From NCBI GenBank assembly GCA_964017195.1, contig OZ024889.1, forward strand, positions 60,039,858 through 60,103,857: a stretch of 64,000 nt of DNA, in the 5' to 3' direction. Below, one piece after another: positions 1,030-16,265 of this stretch. This stretch comes from Siderastrea radians (lineage: Eukaryota > Cnidaria > Anthozoa > Scleractinia > Rhizangiidae). Both the position numbers and the translations under genes were made by a program. The notes beneath the pieces are model-generated. The model saw only the letters and a program-made list of their open reading frames with translations. It was not told the DNA's origin and ran no database searches. Within the stretch, counting starts at the first letter, position 1, and the number at the start of each line of letters is the position of its first letter.

Positions 1030-3285
1030 TTAATTGAGCGAAATCGGATCATGACCAACAGCATACCATTTGCAAAGTACCTGACTGTGTAGTTTGATAT
1101 TAGTTTCAGTAAGTTTTCTACCCTTGTAAAGACAGAAAAAAGCTATATCACCTTTCAAGCCTGCCCTACCAGCTGGCTTAAAATCACCAAAAGTCATCGT
1201 GTTACTTCCAGGTGATGTTCTTGCCGTAAAATTAGCTAATTTTTTACCATTACACCATACCTGAGAAGCGTTGTTACCACCAGGTGCATCCCAGTGAACT
1301 GACAAACAGACCCATTTATTTAGTTCACCAGCATTAGCCTTTGATTGGTAATTAGCTATTGGATTTTTACCACTATAACCGCTTGGACCAATAACAATGT
1401 AGCCACCAGTTGTACCAGCAATTATCATTGATTTATTTGGTGAGAATGCAACAAATTTGTCATAACCTGCTCCATCATCATGCCCAAAAAGTCCATTACG
1501 AAGACCATAAGGTCCTGCGTATGAATTCAATCGATAGACAATGAAAATATTAACTATATCAGCTTGCCCAGAAGCAGGATTTAAATTTATGTTTGACAAC
1601 ATTCGCTTATTTCCATCGAATTTTAAATAATATCGATAATTAATTTTTTCGGCTTTTGTACATAAAATTGGTCTATTTGCTTTTGTCGTTTGAGTAGCAT
1701 CATTTTCTTTCAGAGATTGATCAAAAAGATGTGATACTTCTCTAGTCGAATTGTCAAAAGTAACCTCAGATGGAATACCCCGCTCTATCTTATATAAGCA
1801 ATCAGCTAGTTGATAACTTTCCCAGAACAAAGTTTCTGATAAATTTGATGCGAAATTATTGAATTTTGTTTCCAAAATATTCAAAGAACGTTTATTGCAA
1901 GCATCACCTTCATTTAATGGATCGTCTAAATTGATTATTTTGTGATTGTTCATATCAAGATTCGTTTCCATCACCATCTTACCATTCTCAATAGCAAAAG
2001 CAGTGTCATAAACACTTGGGTCAACGTTTGAAATTGTTTCTTTTACACCATAAACAATAAGATGTCCAATTGTTAAAAGTGATGGAAAAGTAACTGTACC
2101 GTGTAGATCGAGATAAATAAATTGTGGAGGCGAGCTACCCCATCGGTGAAAATTGATGACTGTTTTGGTATAGTTTCCGAATGTTTTTGTTGCATAATTA
2201 GAAATTGAAATCGTAGTGCCTTGCACTGCCACACTCAACTCACTCATTTCCGGCGGAAACCATTCAACTACCAAAGTATAGTAACCGACTGGAAGTTTAT
2301 AAAGGTTAAAACCGAGGCGTGATTGGTACTGGTTTGGTGAGCTTTTTTGAAACAGGAGTTTAAGTTGGTAAGCTTTTTTATTAATTTGATGTGGAGAATT
2401 GGAAAAATCAACAATACCCAAAACCTGAATATTTAATTCACTTGAAGATTCGTCGTCGTTTTCCATCAAGTATCTGAAGGCGTCTTTTTTTTGTCCTGAA
2501 TTAATAATCTGGGTTTCATGAATTTTTTGAGTGACAAGATTTCTCAAATCTGTTATTTCATTTTCCATTAACTCAACATTAACTGCGGATTTCGAATTTT
2601 TTGAATCGGTTTGTAAGTTAACAATTTTATTGTTATTTAAATTCAAGTCCCCCGACATACTTGTTGCGCCATCAAGTTTGAGATAATTTTTTTGTGTTTC
2701 ACTAAGTCTGTAGTTAACAAACTCGACACATGCTGCGTCTCTTTTGTTTGTTGGAAGATTAAGATTGGTTATCGCATTATTTTTCATATCAATTTTAGCT
2801 CCTTTATCTAATTTTTTCGCAAGCTGATTATCAACATATTTTTTATTTACTCCATGGTTTGAATTAACTGGGTCTTTGATATTTGTTATGAAATGGTTGT
2901 TCATGTCTAAAGATTGTAGCATAGACCCGCCTTCTTTTTTACTCAAGAATATATTCCGGGCTGCATTATAAGAGATGGCTTTATTCGTGTTTCCATGAAT
3001 TGGGTACGGCTGTGGTTGCAAAATTAGGTCTCCAATCATAGTTGCTCCTGTCTTTTTCACAAACTGAGTCGTATCCACACCTGGAATCTTAGCTATTTCA
3101 CTATCTAACTGGCTTTTTGTAACCACATCATTATTATTGGTTCCTTGTTTTACATTTACTAATTTTTTATTCTGCATATCATAATCATTATTAGCATCTA
3201 ATTTAAACCCAATACCAGGTAAACCTCTGAGACCTCTCGAATTCATAAAATGATTAAAATTCAATACTCCGTTGTAAAAACTCAT
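1030..3285 (-). CDS. Virion fibre protein: phage-tail-fibre repeats plus LamG-like C-terminal domain
   Basis: 751 residues. After a short N-terminus with a Gly-rich GLRGLPGIG segment (19-26, also a possible protease site), there are at least five repeats of the type D-M-x-N-x-x-I-x-N-L-x-x-P...D-A-x-N (about 35-65, 126-155, 165-195, 213-245 and near 448-475). Two copies of a G-A-T-x-x-x-G-D-L motif follow the style of bacteriophage tail fibres. A middle beta-rich region (about 280-430) precedes a C-terminal concanavalin/LamG-like fold (about 555-745) with a W-V-C-L-S-V-H-W strand and a terminal G-D-I-A-F-F element. Such trimeric fibres bind receptors at virion vertices. It is immediately downstream of the packaging ATPase gene and shares its strand. 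The receptor-binding role is inferred. Confidence 0.85.
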   Translation of the reverse strand: MSFYNGVLNFNHFMNSRGLRGLPGIGFKLDANNDYDMQNKKLVNVKQGTNNNDVVTKSQLDSEIAKIPGVDTTQFVKKTGATMIGDLILQPQPYPIHGNTNKAISYNAARNIFLSKKEGGSMLQSLDMNNHFITNIKDPVNSNHGVNKKYVDNQLAKKLDKGAKIDMKNNAITNLNLPTNKRDAACVEFVNYRLSETQKNYLKLDGATSMSGDLNLNNNKIVNLQTDSKNSKSAVNVELMENEITDLRNLVTQKIHETQIINSGQKKDAFRYLMENDDESSSELNIQVLGIVDFSNSPHQINKKAYQLKLLFQKSSPNQYQSRLGFNLYKLPVGYYTLVVEWFPPEMSELSVAVQGTTISISNYATKTFGNYTKTVINFHRWGSSPPQFIYLDLHGTVTFPSLLTIGHLIVYGVKETISNVDPSVYDTAFAIENGKMVMETNLDMNNHKIINLDDPLNEGDACNKRSLNILETKFNNFASNLSETLFWESYQLADCLYKIERGIPSEVTFDNSTREVSHLFDQSLKENDATQTTKANRPILCTKAEKINYRYYLKFDGNKRMLSNINLNPASGQADIVNIFIVYRLNSYAGPYGLRNGLFGHDDGAGYDKFVAFSPNKSMIIAGTTGGYIVIGPSGYSGKNPIANYQSKANAGELNKWVCLSVHWDAPGGNNASQVWCNGKKLANFTARTSPGSNTMTFGDFKPAGRAGLKGDIAFFCLYKGRKLTETNIKLHSQVLCKWYAVGHDPISLN

Positions 3286-3296
3286 TTATTAACTCT

Positions 3297-3941
3297 TCAG
3301 ATTATTTTAGTAAAATTTTTTGCATTAAATTTTCGTGGCTTATCAACATATAGAAAAGTATATGGTTCATTTGTTGCCAAGAGATAGTCGTCTTTCTTAA
3401 CGTTCAATTCTTGACATATCCTACTCTGTTCATTCTTGCTTGGAAAATCGAAAATGCAATGATGGGAGCAGTTCAATCTGATGGTTTTGTCTGTATTGTA
3501 AAAAGACTGAGACAGATAGATACAGCTGCAATTTTTATTTCGAGAGTTTGTGAAATAGTTTCGTATTTCTTGATCATTTTTGGTTCCGGTGTTCAGGTAA
3601 TCATCGAAAATGATTAACTTTTGGTTTCCATCACCCATTTTATCTAAAGGAATTATCTCACCGTTGCTAGCTTCAATGATATTATAACCATATTTTTTCG
3701 AAAGAGGTTCAAATTTTTTCAACAAATATTGATACTTGCTTTGCTGTAAGTTTTTAGCATATAGATGAATCTTATCAAAAAATAATAGGGGTTTGTTTAT
3801 CATGTGAAGCAAAAGATTGGTTTTACCACTCCCACTCGGAGCGCAGATCAACATTCTGAAGCATCTATCAGGCATGAAAGGATACAACTGAGTGAAATTA
3901 CTGTCTTTATCACCTTCAACGTCATAGTTTGGTATTTCCAT
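3297..3941 (-). CDS. ATP: A32-type (FtsK/HerA superfamily) genome-packaging ATPase
   Basis: 214 residues from the ATG at 3941; a longer in-frame reading from TTG at 3956 is less likely. Walker A is CAPSGSGKTNLL near residues 33-44 and Walker B is KLIIFDDYLN near 109-118, followed by a sensor-like S-Q-S segment. This is the family that pumps DNA into preformed capsids in polintons, virophages, adenovirus-like and NCLDV lineages. It heads a minus-strand unit with fibre and membrane protein genes, spaced 11 and 18 bp apart, so all three probably share the promoter region at 3942-4103. Confidence 0.95.
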   Translation of the reverse strand: MEIPNYDVEGDKDSNFTQLYPFMPDRCFRMLICAPSGSGKTNLLLHMINKPLLFFDKIHLYAKNLQQSKYQYLLKKFEPLSKKYGYNIIEASNGEIIPLDKMGDGNQKLIIFDDYLNTGTKNDQEIRNYFTNSRNKNCSCIYLSQSFYNTDKTIRLNCSHHCIFDFPSKNEQSRICQELNVKKDDYLLATNEPYTFLYVDKPRKFNAKNFTKII

Positions 3942-6950: not shown

Positions 6951-8240
6951 ATGACTTTCAGAATAAGTGATAAACTGCAGAGATATGAAATGGTCAGATT
7001 CTCTCTTGATAATATTATTGAACAACCTGGAAACAACAATTCTCAGAAAAAAACAGGATATAAATTCACAATAACCGACAGATCCACTTTTTTTGATTAT
7101 TTCAACGGATATTTTGAAGTAACTAAAGAGCTCCAAAAGAAAGCCGATGGGGCCGGTTTTGCAGCTGCTGACCGAATTACAATGATTAATGGAGCACATT
7201 CTATCATTAAACACATGGTTATCAAATCTGCTGGTAAAATAGTCTATGATAGTGATAACATTCATAGAATTGTAAATGCTAAAAATTTGCTGGAGTATAG
7301 TGATGATTTCAGCAGGTCAGTTGCTAAAAATAGTTTTTGGTATCTTGACACAGAGGATTCAACAGCAAATACGAATTCTGGTTTTGAAGCAAGGCGAATT
7401 TTAACTCAAGCAAGACAGAATGATGGTAATGGTGGAGCTAAAAGTATAAATGAGATCATTCCGTTGAACAGATACAGTTTCTTTGAGGAATTGGAAGACA
7501 AGATGCTTCCTCCCATGCAGCTCACATTCGAACTGACCTTGAATGATGATGATGAATTGATTCACAAAGCAGCTGCTGCTGATGATGGGCGGGTGGTTGT
7601 CACTCGACTTTATCTTTGGCTTCCAAGATTAACTCCTAAAGATAGTGCGTACGGTGAATTTGTGAAAGATTTTCTCAAACCAACCAAATGGACGTACATG
7701 AAAGATATGTATATTCAGAGTGCAAATACAAGAGCAGTTCAAAACATGTTTCAAATCAGTCCAGCTATTGATAATGTTAAACATGTATTCATTTATCTAC
7801 AGAGAACTAATGGTCCAAACAATGAGGAATCTGAGAGAACTCCTTACATTTTTGATACTTTCAAGCTGAATTCTGCAAATGCTAATAGCTCTCTTACATC
7901 ATGTCGTTTGGAGTATGGAAACAGTACTTTTTATCCTGAATTAGAGTACGATGCAGATTCAAAAGTGAGAATCTTCAACGATCTAATGTCTTATGCTTTT
8001 CGAAAGAATGATCTGAACACAGGAACGCAGTTGAATATACATAATTTCACATCCATTTACGGTCTTGTCTATTTTGATTTAACCTATCAAAAAGAGGCTG
8101 TTACTCGAGATCCAAAACAACTGATTTTGAACTACAGATTGAATGCAGCACCAGCAGCTAATGTGAGAGCTCATGCTATTGTATTTTATGAAAGTGAGGT
8201 TATTGTCAACAAGATTGGAAATGAACTTATGATGGTCTGA
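6951..8240 (+). CDS. MCP: Major capsid protein, double jelly-roll
   Basis: 429 residues, ATG at 6951 behind an A-rich leader. The sequence is beta-rich with the features expected of a polinton double jelly-roll capsid: an N-terminal strand region, two successive barrels (about 35-215 and 225-425), a loop with acidic repeats (LNDDDELIHKAAAADD), LYLWLPRLTPKD at the domain junction, and a C-terminal AHAIVFYESEV strand. Trimers would form pseudo-hexameric capsomers. The gene is isolated as its own unit, flanked by hairpins on both sides, which fits high-level separate expression of the most abundant virion protein. Length is usual for the family. Confidence 0.92.
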   Translation: MTFRISDKLQRYEMVRFSLDNIIEQPGNNNSQKKTGYKFTITDRSTFFDYFNGYFEVTKELQKKADGAGFAAADRITMINGAHSIIKHMVIKSAGKIVYDSDNIHRIVNAKNLLEYSDDFSRSVAKNSFWYLDTEDSTANTNSGFEARRILTQARQNDGNGGAKSINEIIPLNRYSFFEELEDKMLPPMQLTFELTLNDDDELIHKAAAADDGRVVVTRLYLWLPRLTPKDSAYGEFVKDFLKPTKWTYMKDMYIQSANTRAVQNMFQISPAIDNVKHVFIYLQRTNGPNNEESERTPYIFDTFKLNSANANSSLTSCRLEYGNSTFYPELEYDADSKVRIFNDLMSYAFRKNDLNTGTQLNIHNFTSIYGLVYFDLTYQKEAVTRDPKQLILNYRLNAAPAANVRAHAIVFYESEVIVNKIGNELMMV

Positions 8241-8290: not shown

Positions 8291-9091
8291 ATGACACAAT
8301 TGTATGAAATTAATGTTACGCTTTCCAACAATCAGAAAACGAATCTAAGTAAAGCTTTCCACAAACGTGAAACAATCGTCTTGAGGTTGACAAAAGATGC
8401 TCTCAACGGAAGTGATACTCTTCATGTGCCTGCAACAACTGTGAAGAGGTTGGAAAAGAACCGCGCAATGAATAAGGGAATGGACATAAAACTGTCGAAA
8501 ACAAACATTAGAAAACAGGTTGGTGGTTCACTTTTGTCTTCAATCTTGACACTTGGAAGAACTTTTGGACCAACATTAGCAAAGACTCTAGGATTATCAG
8601 CTCTCGCTGGCGCTGCTTCTGAAGGGGCATCTCAAATTGTTAAAAAGATATCTGGAAAAGGTTCACAGACAGGTGGTTTTCTCATTCCAAATTCCAAAAT
8701 AGATCAACTTATCGCTCATAAACATCTATTGAGTAATAAACAGAAAAAGGATATATTAAATGCCCTACAAACTGGTTCTGGTGTTCATATAAAACCAACA
8801 AAAGTACAAACAGGAGGGTTCTTAGGCACACTTTTAGCATCAATCGGTATTCCACTCGCCCTTGAGGCTTTCAAAAAGATGACAGGTTCGGGAGTTCCCA
8901 GAATCGGAAGACCTCCTAAACAAAATGGTGGAGCAGCTCCCAGACTTGGAGTGTATCAACCACCACCTCCATTTTTTGGAACATGGGAACAAGGGGGCGG
9001 CGGGAGTAAAAAAAAAAAATCTGGAAAAGGAATACTTCTAGGGAAAAACAGTCCATTCAACGGAATTCCGCTTCTGGGAACAATTCTTTGA
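8291..9091 (+). CDS. Gly-rich core/membrane-active virion protein with protease sites
   Basis: 266 residues. The N-terminal 75 residues form a beta/helix domain with a regular K/R pattern. Next comes a Gly/Ala-rich hydrophobic region (about 80-115), then segments separated by GG and GXG motifs: ISGKG, MTGSG, and several TGG/VGG. A Pro-rich YQPPPPFFGTWE stretch precedes a tetra-Lys tract encoded by 12 A and a hydrophobic C-terminus (NSPFNGIPLLGTIL). ISGKG and MTGSG fit the (M/I/L)XGX-G maturation consensus. It overlaps the -1 open frame that leads into the protease (9010-9091). Probably a processed minor virion protein; function not established. Confidence 0.8.
   Translation: MTQLYEINVTLSNNQKTNLSKAFHKRETIVLRLTKDALNGSDTLHVPATTVKRLEKNRAMNKGMDIKLSKTNIRKQVGGSLLSSILTLGRTFGPTLAKTLGLSALAGAASEGASQIVKKISGKGSQTGGFLIPNSKIDQLIAHKHLLSNKQKKDILNALQTGSGVHIKPTKVQTGGFLGTLLASIGIPLALEAFKKMTGSGVPRIGRPPKQNGGAAPRLGVYQPPPPFFGTWEQGGGGSKKKKSGKGILLGKNSPFNGIPLLGTIL
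9008..9019 (+). other. Run of 12 A: possible -1 slippage site between core protein and protease
   Basis: Four AAA codons in the upstream gene give A_AAA_AAA heptamers in phase. The -1 frame is blocked by TAA at 9007-9009 and is open from 9010 straight into the protease. No clear stimulatory hairpin is visible just downstream, so transcriptional slippage is an equal possibility. An indel-prone homopolymer is the null explanation. Confidence 0.4.
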
Positions 9092-9129
9092 AATTCGACA
9101 AAAATATAGCCTTAAGCAACTTTGATTTG

Positions 9130-9558
9130 ATGAAATGGTGTCGACATCTTGGAATACCAATAGACAAGGGTGGTGTCTTGTCAAGAGACCAAACTGTTCC
9201 ACATAACCACAAAATGGCGCTATTTATTTATAATCTTGAACCATCATACATGGGTGGAAGCCATTGGGTTTCAACACATGTTAAAAATGGGGAAATTATT
9301 TATTTCGACAGTTTTGGGTTGCCACCATTTCAAGAAATTGTAAATCACGCAAAGAAAAAAAATCTCACTCTAATTCATCAAAATAACCAGATACAAGCCT
9401 TGAATACAATGACTTGCGGATATTTTTGTTTATACTTTTTGAATGAAATGAATAAGGGTGTATCATATTTTGATCTTTTACAAGTTTTTGACGTTCATGA
9501 CACAGAAAAGAATGAAAAATTCATTGAAAGATATTTCAAAAAGTTAGAAAAAATTTAA
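9130..9558 (+). CDS. PRO: Adenovirus-type (ULP-like) cysteine maturation protease
   Basis: Coordinates give the first ATG; the open frame runs back to 9010, overlaps the upstream gene and includes the ALSNFDL segment, which looks like part of the folded domain. From 9130 the protein is 142 residues. Catalytic His is in GSHWVS, Asp/Asn partner region in YFDSFG, oxyanion Gln in QNNQIQ and nucleophile Cys in MTCGYFC. The family cleaves virion precursors at (M/I/L)XGX-G sites, present in several neighbours. The only start before ALSNFDL is TTG at 9088, so the full N-terminus may need frameshifting at the A12 run or a non-AUG start. Next gene starts 18 bp on. Confidence 0.93.
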   Translation: MKWCRHLGIPIDKGGVLSRDQTVPHNHKMALFIYNLEPSYMGGSHWVSTHVKNGEIIYFDSFGLPPFQEIVNHAKKKNLTLIHQNNQIQALNTMTCGYFCLYFLNEMNKGVSYFDLLQVFDVHDTEKNEKFIERYFKKLEKI

Positions 9559-9575
9559 ATATAACCATATTGTAA

Positions 9576-9737
9576 ATGAAATCTTATTGCGTAAAACAGA
9601 GAAAAGAAACTGAGTGTGTGGAGCCTTCTGGATTCAGATACGCTAAAAATGGCAGACCAATGTTTTTCTGCACATGCGCTGAATGTGGCATAACCAAAAC
9701 CAGATTTGTGAAACAATCAGAGGTGCCGGGAAACTAA
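9576..9737 (+). CDS. Small zinc-ribbon protein (DUF5679-like), zero-frame product of a frameshift module
   Basis: 53 residues, ATG at 9576. Cysteines at 5, 14, 32, 34 and 37 with a YAKNGRPMFFCTCAECG core give a zinc-ribbon-like protein of the short viral kind. The first pair is irregular (C5 and C14 instead of a tight CxxC). The stop TAA (9735-9737) directly follows the heptamer GGGAAAC in exact slippery phase, and a GC-rich hairpin begins 6 nt after the heptamer. Read normally it makes a tiny zinc protein; after a -1 shift it is joined to the phospholipase-like frame. Too short for many ORF callers. Role inferred: nucleic-acid or protein binding inside the virion. Confidence 0.75.
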   Translation: MKSYCVKQRKETECVEPSGFRYAKNGRPMFFCTCAECGITKTRFVKQSEVPGN

Positions 9738-9760
9738 ATAGCCCGTCTGAAGGGGCGGGC
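9728..9760 (+). promoter_or_regulatory. Candidate programmed -1 frameshift signal 1 (zinc ribbon to PLA2)
   Basis: Heptamer G_GGA_AAC at 9728-9734, in phase with the zero frame (codons GGA 9729, AAC 9732), then stop TAA. Spacer TAAATA (6 nt). Stem 9741-9748 with 9753-9760: G-C, C-G, C-G, C-G, G-C, U-G, C-G, U-G, tetraloop GAAG. Heptamer, spacer and stem all meet the standard -1 frameshift design. Confidence 0.75.
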
Positions 9761-10384
9761 ATTCTGGATACGATGGCTTCAACAGGTACTGATATGTTAA
9801 TTCACCATGGTATTCCTTGGCTTGGAAAAAAAGCTGTAGAGATGGGAAGATATTATGGATCTGAAGCTATGAGAAACCCAAAACTGCAGAAAAAGGCTCT
9901 CGATTATGCTTTGGAAAGAGCAACTCCTTTTATTCAAAAAACAGGATCAGAGATGCTTGATCAATTATCAACAAAGATACGACCTAATAAAAAATACAAA
10001 ACCGACAGAAAAGAACTTGATGGAAGTGGGATTGACATTCATAAAATGATTGGAAAACTCCCTAAACCAAAGGGGGGTTGGACTCTTCCAGGGCATAAAT
10101 ACACAGGCCCCTACTATGACCTTGAAAATCAGGTGAGATGGGATCCAAAAACAGGAGAAATATTTGAGATATATGACGAACCAACTGGTAGGACCGATGC
10201 TATAGCAATGCAACATGATGTTGATTATTCAGTTTGCAAAGATGATAAAAAATGCAAGAACAAAGCCGATAGAAAAATGGTCAAAGCGTTGGATTCTGTT
10301 CCTTATAATGAGAGACAATGGGGTCATTGGATGGCACGAAATATTATTGATAAAAAGCAAAAACTTGGTCTTGGTTTAAACTGA
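9734..10384 (+). CDS. Viral phospholipase A2-like domain protein (-1 frame)
   Basis: 216 residues when entered at 9734 from the upstream -1 shift; an internal ATG at 9683 in this frame would give 233 residues starting inside the zinc-ribbon gene. N-terminal helical region (MASTGTDMLIHHGIPWLG onward), basic linker (KIRPNKKYKTDRK), then LDGSG, a match to the maturation consensus. The PLA2-like core has a PGHKYTGPYYDLEN calcium-loop-like segment and the DAIAMQHDVDYSVC helix with catalytic His-Asp. Such domains breach endosomal membranes in parvovirus VP1. Ends ...LGLGLN at TGA 10382, right after T_TTA_AAC. Two Cys follow the active site helix. Virion location is inferred. Confidence 0.88.
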   Translation, partial: LNSPSEGAGILDTMASTGTDMLIHHGIPWLGKKAVEMGRYYGSEAMRNPKLQKKALDYALERATPFIQKTGSEMLDQLSTKIRPNKKYKTDRKELDGSGIDIHKMIGKLPKPKGGWTLPGHKYTGPYYDLENQVRWDPKTGEIFEIYDEPTGRTDAIAMQHDVDYSVCKDDKKCKNKADRKMVKALDSVPYNERQWGHWMARNIIDKKQKLGLGLN

Positions 10385-10468
10385 AAAGGCCGTCGAGTGA
10401 AGAAAACTGGCAAGAAAAATTAGCTGATGAGCTTCATAAACCGATAAAGCGTAACTTCACCCGGCGGC
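10375..10468 (+). promoter_or_regulatory. Candidate programmed -1 frameshift signal 2 (PLA2 to integrase)
   Basis: Heptamer T_TTA_AAC at 10375-10381, in exact phase with the PLA2 frame, directly followed by TGA. This is the heptamer used by coronaviruses. A possible stimulatory stem pairs GCCGTCG (10389-10395, 7 nt after the heptamer) with CGGCGGC (10462-10468), with an inner stem 10398-10402 / 10432-10436. A competing local hairpin ACCCG/CGGGT exists at about 10459-10472. The fold is a hand estimate. Confidence 0.7.
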
Positions 10469-11334
10469 GGGTAATTGTAAACCATATTGACGAGACATGG
10501 TGTTCAGATATCGTTGAGATGCAAAAATTCAGTCGATGGAATAAGGGTTATAGATATCTTCTCATGGTACTCGATGTGTTTAGTAAATACGGTTGGATCG
10601 TCCCATTAAAAGATAAAAAGGGTGAAACCGTTATGAATGCATTCAAAACAATATTCAAAGAGGGGCGTAAACCACAATATCTTTGGACAGATAAAGGAAA
10701 AGAGTATTACAACAAACATGTTAAGGAACTACTTGATAATAATAAAATAACCTTGTACTCAACTGAGAATGAGGAAAAGTCGTCAGTTTGCGAAAGATGG
10801 AACCGTACAATCAAAACCAAGATGTGGAAACAGTTTACTGTTCAAGGTAATACACAGTATCTTGACATGCTACCTAAATTAGTGAAACAGTCTAACAACA
10901 CCAGACATAGCTCTATCAAAATGACGCCCATAGAAGCCAGTAAAAAGAAGAATGAAGGAGTTGTTTACTTTAACCTTTTCGGTGATATGAAGCCAATCTC
11001 AACAAAGTCAAAATACAGAGTCGGTGATAAGGTCAGAATATCTAAGTACAAACGTCCTGTCTTTGATAAAGGATACACAGCTAATTGGACAGAAGAAGTT
11101 TTTACAGTCGACAAGATACAATACACCAATCCGATCACTTACAGACTCAAAGATCTCAGTGGTGAGGAGATATCAGGTTCTTTTTATGAACAGGAGATGC
11201 AGAAGGCTGTTCAAGACGTTTACCGTATTGAGAAAGTAATTCGACGAGACGCTCGAAAAGGTAAAGCTTTGGTGAAGTGGAGCGGTTACCCAGAAAAATT
11301 CAATTCTTGGGTAGATATTAAAGATCTGATGTAA
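10381..11334 (+). CDS. INT: Retroviral-type integrase with C-terminal chromodomain
   Basis: 317 residues if entered at 10381 from the frameshift; the first ATG in frame is 10519. The catalytic core has its first Asp in ETWCSDIVEM (codon 10507-10509), second in LWTDKGKEYYN and Glu in SSVCERWNRT. A beta-barrel-like region follows (KYRVGDKVRISKYKR) and then a chromodomain (YRIEKVI...LVKWSGYPEKFNSW). The first catalytic Asp lies upstream of the first ATG, so a product starting at 10519 would be dead; there is no ATG between 10381 and 10519. The -1 frame is open from a TGA/TAA pair about 30 nt before the PLA2 stop. Integrase inserts the element DNA and the chromodomain may steer targeting. Confidence 0.92.
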   Translation: MKRPSSEENWQEKLADELHKPIKRNFTRRRVIVNHIDETWCSDIVEMQKFSRWNKGYRYLLMVLDVFSKYGWIVPLKDKKGETVMNAFKTIFKEGRKPQYLWTDKGKEYYNKHVKELLDNNKITLYSTENEEKSSVCERWNRTIKTKMWKQFTVQGNTQYLDMLPKLVKQSNNTRHSSIKMTPIEASKKKNEGVVYFNLFGDMKPISTKSKYRVGDKVRISKYKRPVFDKGYTANWTEEVFTVDKIQYTNPITYRLKDLSGEEISGSFYEQEMQKAVQDVYRIEKVIRRDARKGKALVKWSGYPEKFNSWVDIKDLM

Positions 11335-14700: not shown

Positions 14701-15563
14701 CATGGTTGAAACCTTACATCGATTTTAACACAAAAAAGAGAGCAGGGGCAAAGAACTCTTTTGAGAAGGATTTTTTCAAGTTGATGAACAATTCGGTGTT
14801 CGGAAAGACAATGGAGAATCTGAGAAAGCGGCAGGACATCAAACTAATAACTGATAAAGGAAAATTGGCGAAGTGGGCCAGCAGACCGAGTTTCATAAGC
14901 AGTAAAATATTTAACGAAGATTTAGTTGCTGTTCATAAAATGAAAACAACTTTGACATTGAACAGACCGGCATATGTTGGAATGTGCATCCTTGACTTAT
15001 CAAAAACATTGATGTATGATTTTCATTACAATTACATCAAAAGTAAGTATGGCGACAAAGCTCGGTTGCTGTTTACAGATACTGACAGTCTGACCTATGA
15101 AATTGAAGCAGATGATGTCTATCAAGATTTTTGGAAAGATAAACATCTTTTCGACAACAGTGATTATCCAAAGGATAGCCCATTTTTTGATAGCACAAAC
15201 AAGAAAGTCATTGGTAAATTCAAGGACGAAAAAGCAGGAACTCCAATCGTCGGGTTTGTTGGTTTGAAGCCGAAAATGTATTCTTGCATAACAGATGACG
15301 AAGAGGGTAGTTGCACGGCAAAGGGAATAAAAAAGAATGTGATAAAACAAGAGTTGCGATATGATAATTACGAAGATACTCTTTTCAATAAAAAGCAGAT
15401 GCGTCACACGATGAGACTAATTAAAAGTGTAAAACATCAAATTGGTAGCTATACTGTGATCAAAATATCGCTCAGCTGCTTCGACGATAAAAGATATATA
15501 CATGAAAATGGCGTGACAAGTAATGCTTATGGTCATATAATACTTCGGATATTTTTCGGTTAA
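11754..15563 (+). CDS. polB: Protein-primed family B DNA polymerase
   Basis: 1269 residues. A Lys-rich N-terminal region without obvious domain (1-270) is followed by a C2H2-like finger near 390-414 (HFCMYCLQCF...NNHKDIC). The 3'-5' exonuclease has Exo I YADFEAI (D448, E450), Exo II HNLKGYDSHF, and Exo III in DLYLKSDILLLADVF. A zinc-binding HNH/endonuclease VII-like insert (CHICKKPYE...DHCHVTG...HEKC, about 544-580) lies between Exo I and Exo II. Polymerase motifs: YLDANNLYGWAMSQYLP (A), LMNNSVFGKTMENLRKR (B, 1011-1027) and LLFTDTDSL (C, D1109 and D1111). The C-terminus with CFDDKRYI is intact. The last 49 codons lie in the right inverted repeat, an uncommon overlap. This enzyme replicates the element from terminal-protein-primed ends. 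Confidence 0.97.
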   Translation: MNKASLKKRSKSNQFIKLLLDQKKRKPDDTKPVPRQPPSLFGEVPEINVPILKPTVVTTTLNKLPNVIQKTTKNVIDWEEWLKNADKVIEVIEVQNKKKIKWRKWLENINKVAGPTFTQKEQALRGFARSYEISLTNRQDPLIQLQSTRSLIKNNLLKVLNEMKGLKFTETLKITFEKYKGDELIEKEAYFNAKTQTITNEIEIAELLQITQQQIVNKIQQWISEGSGWTIQSVDGHFINIVIYEPLKGSSYIPLPKELRNSGKGIINMKNNDNECFRWCHIRRLLPQKKDPQRIKECDKKYVEKLDYSGIEFPVSEKQYNKIEKQNNIRVNVFGYEKGKRYSIYVSKEKKFNSCLNLLLITKGEVKHYCLLKDISKFLYNQTKHKGRKHFCMYCLQCFSSERVLNNHKDICIQVNGTQAINMPEPGSKIAFKNYRRKLPAPFVIYADFEAITEKVDEKAPQKSYTEQYQKHTACGYGYKVVCCYDDKFSKPIKIYRGEMAINKFMNDMLAEVKYCQKVEIKHFNKPMKMTDEDKESFERAEECHICKKPYEASDKRVRDHCHVTGEYRGSAHEKCNRNFYLTDKIPVVFHNLKGYDSHFIMQEIGNIAKKNVYFDEKKKKYYNMNINVIPCNMEKYLAFMLGHNLVFIDSFQFMSSSLSNLVKNLPAEAFKHTGQVFQGEQLSLMTKKGVYPYDYMNSFEKFEDKRLPKKEDFFSIMNNEHITDEEYQHAQNVWNEFGLSSMGEYHDLYLKSDILLLADVFENFRKACQQYYELDPAHYFTSPGLSWDAMLKMTNIELELISDVDMFQFIEKGMRGGISYIANRYGKANNKYMKNYNPEEASKYIMYLDANNLYGWAMSQYLPTGGFKWLTEEEVDLSKYNDESEKGLVLEVDLEYPGELHDLHNDYPLAAEKIKITEDMLSPYCREIAEKFKVKVGLVEKLVPTLMNKEKYVLHYRNLQLYMSLGLKLTKIHRALEFDQSPWLKPYIDFNTKKRAGAKNSFEKDFFKLMNNSVFGKTMENLRKRQDIKLITDKGKLAKWASRPSFISSKIFNEDLVAVHKMKTTLTLNRPAYVGMCILDLSKTLMYDFHYNYIKSKYGDKARLLFTDTDSLTYEIEADDVYQDFWKDKHLFDNSDYPKDSPFFDSTNKKVIGKFKDEKAGTPIVGFVGLKPKMYSCITDDEEGSCTAKGIKKNVIKQELRYDNYEDTLFNKKQMRHTMRLIKSVKHQIGSYTVIKISLSCFDDKRYIHENGVTSNAYGHIILRIFFG

Positions 15564-15736
15564 ATTTAGGTAAAGTTTCATATAAAATTTTATATGAAAT
15601 TTTGGGTATATTTAGGCGAAATCTTGGCAGCCCTGTTTTGTTAATTTTAACCAAGATTTGCCGCCGCGTTCGTGTCTGAAATTGCGGGTATATTTGACTG
15701 ATGAGCTCCGACTGGTTTGGGTAAATTTTTTTCAGT
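15415..15736 (-). repeat. Right inverted repeat of the Polinton (inner part)
   Basis: Mirror of 1-322. It begins inside polB: codons from about 1221 to the stop at 15,561-15,563 lie in the repeat. Beyond the polB stop it holds a palindrome (15,576-15,599) and the motif GACTGATGAGCTCCGACTGG, which recurs in diverged form in the outer 151-bp units. Confidence 0.95.
15576..15599 (+). terminator. 24-bp perfect palindrome after polB (mirror copy at 138-161)
   Basis: Starts 12 nt after the polB stop. Left arm TTTCATATAAAA pairs with TTTTATATGAAA with no loop. Because it is in the inverted repeat, the same palindrome lies at 138-161. It could be the polB 3'-end hairpin or a terminal-repeat cruciform. 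Confidence 0.55.
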
Positions 15737-16265
15737 TGAGATTTAGGTCTTATTTAAATTTTGGTAGAATGGTTCGTAACAAGTTATATAAGACTTTGGG
15801 TAAATTGTGAGTATAATTTTAGTAAAAGATTTTGCTAGCTTCGCTGTATTTTAGTCGACAGTTTAGTCAAAAACTGAAACTATGACTTTTTTGACTGGAA
15901 ATAATTTCTCTTTAATTTTGACAGAAGATTTGACTGCTGCGCTCGTAGCCCCATTTCATATGAAATTACAGGTATATTTGGCTGATGGGCTCCGACTGGT
16001 TTGGGTATATTTCTATTTAATTTGACTGAAAATTTTAGTATAATTTTGGCAGAAAATTTTGACTGCCACGTTTGTTAATTTTATCCAAGATTTCGCCACT
16101 GCGCTCGTGTCTGAAATTGTGGGTATATTTGACTGATGGGCTCCGACTGGTTTGGGTATATTTCTATTTAATTTGACTGAAAATTTTAGTATAATTTTGG
16201 CAGAAGATTTTGACTGCCACGTTTGTTAATTTTATCCAAGATTTCGCCACTGCGCTCGTAGCCCC
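15737..16265. repeat. Outer right terminal repeat with 151-bp tandem units
   Basis: A non-coding continuation of the terminal repeat. Two nearly identical 151-bp units start at 15,971 and 16,122 (each begins GGTATATTTG and ends near GCGCTCGT). Degenerate relatives lie further in, at about 15,605-15,735 and 15,785-15,960. The units share the block GGGCTCCGACTGGTTTGGGT with the inner inverted repeat. Similarity stops near 16,262-16,275, which I take as the right end of the element. Confidence 0.8.

Follow-up and report, generated by a model that had tools for sequence, protein, structure and literature searches.

How can an integrase be made when its reading frame lies behind two others, each closed by a stop codon and each out of phase with the next? 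The question is raised by positions 9576–11334 of the window, by which we mean the whole 64,000-nt stretch of Siderastrea radians DNA that was analyzed. Here, a zinc ribbon, a PLA2, and an integrase (INT) follow one another in frames 0, −1, and −2 (Table 1). This arrangement was proposed in a sequence-only reading of the locus and is borne out by the matched domains, namely DUF5679, Phospholip_A2_4, and rve with Chromo. The same reading placed a canonical slippery heptamer directly before the stop at each of the two junctions, zinc ribbon to PLA2 (J1) and PLA2 to INT (J2). Both heptamers are present in the window copy, in phase and flush with their stops. Judged from sequence, two-step −1 programmed ribosomal frameshifting very probably yields PLA2 and INT as C-terminal extensions of the zinc ribbon. 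The integrase would then probably be made only after two successive −1 slips, as in some retroviruses.

Table 1. Features of the three-frame module and its surroundings (window positions).
Feature	Positions	Strand	Description
Terminal inverted repeats	1–322 and 15415–15736		Identical across 722 nt compared; left repeat continues leftwards beyond the window
Candidate J0 A-run	9008–9019	+	In-phase A_AAA_AAA near the end of ORF 8291–9091; weaker
Adenain-like protease frame	9088–9558	+	Peptidase_C5; window copy without ATG at start
Zinc-ribbon ORF	9576–9737	+	DUF5679 (Pfam); zero frame; 53 aa; GN-stop end
J1 heptamer (zinc ribbon to PLA2)	9728–9734	+	G_GGA_AAC; TAA at 9735–9737 directly after
PLA2 frame	9734–10384	+	Open throughout; Phospholip_A2_4 (Pfam); −1 relative to zinc ribbon
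J1 hairpin	9741–9760	+	8 bp, 9741–9748 with 9753–9760; starts 6 nt after heptamer
J2 heptamer (PLA2 to INT)	10375–10381	+	T_TTA_AAC; TGA at 10382–10384 directly after
Integrase frame	10381–11334	+	rve core and chromodomain (Pfam); −1 relative to PLA2
J2 long-range stem	10389–10468	+	14 positions, 10389–10402 with 10455–10468; 52-nt loop; 7 nt after heptamer

The module is part of a Polinton. Pfam matches include a retrovirus-type integrase (rve and Chromo), an A32-like packaging ATPase (Pox_A32, 39 bits against a cut-off of 22.8), and a marginal adenain-like protease (Peptidase_C5, 21.9 bits against 21.3, with no single stretch passing alone). A 1269-aa ORF, the PolB candidate, has what we take by eye to be PolB-like motifs; its sole Pfam match is Endonuclease_7, and it has no PDB match. 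The capsid candidate, ORF 6951–8240, has no PDB, PHROG, or above-cut-off Pfam match, and PDB and PHROG searches gave no useful match for PLA2. On the minus strand, a 751-aa ORF at 1030–3285 contains repeated DMNNxKIxNLxxP-type segments and looks fibre-like by eye. The left end of the element lies outside the window. Since the terminal inverted repeats are identical over the length compared, the window copy was probably inserted recently. A tandem array (15971–16259, period 151, 98% matches) lies close to the right terminal repeat.

Canonical heptamers are uncommon before stops in this DNA. Within the window, 59 of the 6948 stop triplets (0.85%) directly follow one, so that the chance of two such heptamers at two stops is ~7e-5, if the two are independent and before conservation is counted.

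Conservation was scored among copies from a single 805-Mb genome, which also supplied the genome-wide counts given below. A six-frame search produced 2774 candidates, from which 142 integrase copies were scored; junction counts refer to 82 of these 142 matched copies. All DNA copies thus come from one genome and are mutually related, and other genomes were compared at the protein level only. J1 is a −1 step in every one of the 82 copies. GGGAAAC stands flush before the stop in 76 of them (TAA in 67, TGA in 9), and the other six have GGAAAAC or GGTAAAC. J2 is a −1 step in 77 of the 82, and every one of these 77 has a canonical heptamer in phase: TTTAAAC in 64, AAAAAAC in 12, and TTTAAAA in one. 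The stop lies 39 nt further downstream in four of the 64 TTTAAAC copies, and the 12 AAAAAAC heptamers lie 12 or 39 nt upstream of the stop. The five outliers at J2 comprise one copy with a +1 step (L008) and four (L039, L048, L049, and L050) in which a short deletion after the heptamer places PLA2 and INT in one open frame. These four all keep the −1 step at J1, L050 with GGAAAAC.

Such counts bear directly on the possibility that the element is decaying and that its frames were broken by assembly errors or by indels peculiar to individual copies. A few copies do have broken frames, namely L008 at J2 and the one of 142 with a TGA inside its INT match, but the −1 phase is otherwise retained as described, and both downstream proteins are constrained. 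For PLA2, intact in 80 of the 82 copies, mean pS is 0.34 and mean pN is 0.09 (pN/pS 0.26); for INT, in 82 copies, the values are 0.24 and 0.039 (pN/pS 0.16). These values indicate that the copies are well diverged and protein-constrained. Moreover, stem and heptamer occur together ~500 times genome-wide for each junction. Random decay, copy-specific indels, and assembly error were rejected on the junction conservation counts, and we regard them as scarcely credible. The sequence-only reading had likewise found random decay hard to reconcile with the locus, and had named close relatives with fused frames and no heptamers as the sign of copy-specific indels. Close relatives instead keep heptamer, phase, and stem; among the 82 copies, PLA2 and INT are fused in the four already mentioned.

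The genome-wide counts come from two short patterns. The J1 stem pattern GCCCGTC-N4-GGGGCGGGC has 538 matches (reversed control, 0), and GGGAAAC stands exactly 6 nt upstream in 502 of the 538, with spacer and loop variable. The J2 5′ stem arm with its preceding AAA has 504 matches (control, 1), with WWWAAAC at a fixed distance in 495; both patterns probe sequence and spacing rather than frame, and leave out copies with differing stems. Among 100 listed J2 places, the heptamer is TTTAAAC in 22 and AAAAAAC in 78, and none is mixed. On the integrase tree, the AAAAAAC state falls into two separate groups, which indicates that the two canonical heptamers have been swapped at least twice at J2, by mutation or recombination and in either direction. 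A search with the Stylophora adintovirus integrase added four divergent copies, whose PLA2 DNA is 69–88% identical to the window. All four retain the −1 relation at J1 along with its heptamer and both arms of the stem, with the loop changed in three. Three of the four reach J2, where AAAAAAC is in phase and the 5′ arm is the same.

Signals for −1 frameshifting typically have a stem or pseudoknot about 5–9 nt downstream of the heptamer, and the spacing at both J1 and J2 falls inside this range. The window copy of the J2 stem has one A × C mismatch. As an isolated 27-nt sequence, the J1 hairpin folds better than all shuffles (z −4.61, 0 of 200 as good); in a 67-nt stretch, z is −0.91, with 38 of 200 shuffles as good. 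At J2, the fold outperforms shuffles only modestly (z −1.91, with 6 of 200 equally good). At J1, 99.7% of cells contain a formed stem pair (45 distinct rows). The corresponding value at J2 is 94.5% (22 rows), for a set that excludes L008, the single-frame copies, and eight copies whose integrase starts differently. Shifting the partner by one column lowers pairing to 36–62%. For the eight copies with the differing start, a different stem is predicted.

An alignment of related copies had been proposed as a check for conserved heptamer, phase, and stop alongside covarying stems. The first part of this expectation held, in that heptamer, phase, and stop are largely conserved; the second did not, as neither stem covaries more than shuffles do. 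At J1, six of the eight pairs are invariant and the stem is too constant for a covariation test; at J2, one pair has a two-sided change, again not above shuffles. On these comparisons, both stems are conserved and foldable, but covariation does not prove them. At the codon level, the five codons that make up the J1 stem arms are free of synonymous change, the sole such placement of 206 (1/206), for a pattern picked after the fold was seen. Three of the five have amino-acid changes in a minority of copies. Taken as a plain eight-codon window, the J1 site ranks second of 202.

Could PLA2 and INT be translated separately, through internal or non-AUG initiation, leaky scanning, or stop-restart, with the heptamers incidental? 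Separate initiation of PLA2 is conceivable, given that codon 20 encodes Met in 79 of 80 copies. For INT, 16 of the 82 copies have an in-frame AUG before the first catalytic Asp, and separate initiation is possible there, but 61 have none; four are fused, and one with an altered motif is unscored. In the window, the motif that we take to hold the first catalytic Asp of the integrase starts at 10498, whereas the first AUG of the frame is at 10519. An integrase annotation begun at this Met drops the first catalytic residue. The stretches that lack an AUG are also under protein selection. In the 61 copies without an upstream AUG in the PLA2 frame, codons 9–19 past J1 have pS 0.375 and pN 0.041, a ratio of 0.11; read in the other two frames, this stretch has pN/pS of 2.47 and 2.82. 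The 45 codons that precede the first Met of INT have pN/pS of 0.21 in the INT frame versus 1.98 and 0.79 in the shifted frames, in the 52 gap-free copies among 61 that have no upstream AUG (L008, L021, L028, L036, L053, L057, L058, L062, and L068 were dropped for gaps). This result has the same direction as that past J1 and is less sharp, with one shifted frame below 1. On these substitution patterns, the AUG-less stretches after both putative slip sites are evolving as protein in the −1 frame. Separate translation is very unlikely in view of this selection, the lack of an AUG in most INT copies, the retention of canonical heptamers or their exchange for other canonical ones, and the existence of relatives with PLA2 and INT in one frame. 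A small intron spliced at each junction would also restore a single frame. However, nothing was seen in favor of splicing. A normal intron would have no room between frames that touch or overlap at the heptamer, and slippery heptamers at fixed spacing would go unexplained by a splice; we consider this extremely improbable.

Comparison with other genomes was made on proteins, so codons were read back from residues, and the PLA2 set lies within the length limits of the search. Among the best 120 of 5569 integrase relatives, PLA2 and rve share one frame in 23, and all three domains do so in two (P0007 and P0041). The named integrase relatives among the matches listed are coral proteins, from Oculina, Stylophora, and a Stylophora coral adintovirus. 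Among the best 120 of 2396 PLA2 relatives, all PLA2-only ORFs, the tail contains LN in 38 and xKN in 71, together 109; these are the residues that the two J2 heptamers would encode. At J1, GK[LRWP] is found in 47 of the 50 listed PLA2 relatives whose ORFs start upstream, and the other 70 are not extended. The zinc-ribbon set is more varied: among the best 120 of 278 ORFs, 70 have a different tail peptide. The remaining 50 fall into three groups: in 17, GN forms the exact end, and the linkers before it differ greatly in length; in 17, GN is followed by more residues (3 seemingly unrelated); and 16 have none. The C-terminal peptide of ORF 8291–9091 (GKGILLGKNSPF..IPLLGTIL) resembles the tail of the zinc-ribbon subfamily that makes up those 70 of the 120 listed. 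Scans of a viral contig collection for the locus or the J1 pattern turned up no relatives, and a phage collection gave no match. The single-frame forms of PLA2 and INT, in four of 82 genome copies and in the 23 of 120 listed relatives, suggest tolerance of the fusion product rather than an accidental junction.

Two −1 slips explain the frames, the heptamers, their spacing from the stems, the stems themselves, the AUG-less stretches under protein selection, and the in-frame fusions of relatives. Two −1 frameshifts as an expression plan, as originally proposed, are therefore supported as the best explanation of the sequence, with heptamer, phase, and stem conserved. At J1, ribosomes would slip at G_GGA_AAC, aided by the 8-bp hairpin, and so avoid the stop and read PLA2. 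At J2, a fraction of the shifted ribosomes would slip again, at T_TTA_AAC or at the A_AAA_AAC that predominates among the listed genome places, aided by the downstream stem, and continue into the integrase. The expected products are zinc ribbon in the largest amount, then zinc ribbon–PLA2, and least of all zinc ribbon–PLA2–integrase. We infer slippage, its rates, and the delivery of integrase into the particle together with PLA2.

The protease encoded just upstream may represent a further step. In the window copy, its frame opens at the J0 A-run, where A_AAA_AAA is in phase. Of the 65 copies scored here (17 of the 82 are unscored), 64 have a −1 step between the upstream ORF and the protease, and the protease frame lacks an ATG in 20 of the 52 copies with enough upstream sequence. 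The protease could therefore also be a −1 product, which would make three shifts and would add to the two-shift explanation rather than replace it. Weighing against this, the other 32 of the 52 have an in-frame ATG upstream, the A-run codes for poly-lysine and its heptamer may be incidental, and L044 has the upstream ORF and the protease in one frame. We consider a third shift a fair question on which the balance tips slightly to the negative.

The PLA2 domain has conserved His-Asp and YTGP segments. It also contains one of several [MIL]xGSG motifs (LDGSG, 10016–10030), with others in three further ORFs (listed at 3804, 5883, and 8291). These resemble adenovirus protease sites, so that the PLA2 fusion may be a target of the element's protease. 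However, a wider form of the motif has 0.3 to 1.9 matches per ORF in shuffled sequences, and counts alone are therefore no proof.

What would such an arrangement mean for the element? Two questions about Polintons have, to our knowledge, stayed open: whether they make infectious particles, and by what route the integrase arrives at new DNA. The parvovirus relatives of PLA2 act during entry. An integrase that existed solely as the tail of a PLA2 fusion would be bound to a protein with relatives active at that step. Tentatively, and with rather more doubt than confidence, we suggest that Polintons of this lineage meter their enzymes as extensions of particle proteins through a chain of −1 shifts, possibly three (protease at J0, PLA2 at J1, and integrase at J2). 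The integrase would enter the virion joined to a membrane-active PLA2 and later be freed by the element's own protease, so that a retrovirus-like Gag-Pol plan would have evolved in a double-stranded DNA virus lineage. If true, tandem −1 frameshifting at this locus would be unusual for a DNA element of eukaryotes. Each signal is present ~500 times in a single genome, which also offers a natural comparative set for slip-site requirements.

The sequence-only reading knew of no such description in Polintons, and the literature searched agrees: no account of zinc-ribbon/PLA2/integrase frameshifting was found in the text available. Within that search on Polinton or adintovirus frameshifting and PLA2, only PMC11071296 was relevant; most subscription journals lie outside the search, and an earlier mention is possible. 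In its available passages, this 2024 preprint, which used KnotInFrame, describes a hypothetical −1 shift near the 3′ end of adintovirus Penton and suggests a similar relationship for potential Hexon-Adenain fusions. The elements are of the same type, adintoviruses and Polintons, but zinc-ribbon, PLA2, and integrase frameshifting is absent from those passages. The word "frameshift" does not occur in the portions searched of PMC3671162 and PMC4642659, and in those of PMC12567637 and PMC12721341 it is used of other matters. According to the available part of PMC4642659, integrated copies are the sole form in which Polintons are known to date; the same paper also links this type of PLA2 to parvovirus. 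The domain is shared with the parvovirus VP1-type PLA2, but here it is a −1 extension of a zinc ribbon and is joined onto an integrase.

Two known systems offer parallels in expression. In bacterial insertion sequences of the IS3 family, OrfA-OrfB is made through a −1 frameshift. Like IS3, this element has a DDE recombinase as a predicted −1 fusion in a DNA element; IS3 differs in having one shift, in being bacterial, and in lacking PLA2 and capsid genes. Retroviruses of the HTLV and MMTV type make Gag-Pro-Pol through two −1 frameshifts. The module frames contain no gag, retroviral protease, or reverse transcriptase by Pfam, and rve and the chromodomain are their only retroviral domains. The frame relation is nevertheless that of HTLV and MMTV: one −1 step follows another, canonical heptamers have structure downstream of them, and integrase comes last. 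Unlike in those viruses, this relation is found here in a DNA element, with a zinc ribbon first and PLA2 in the middle.
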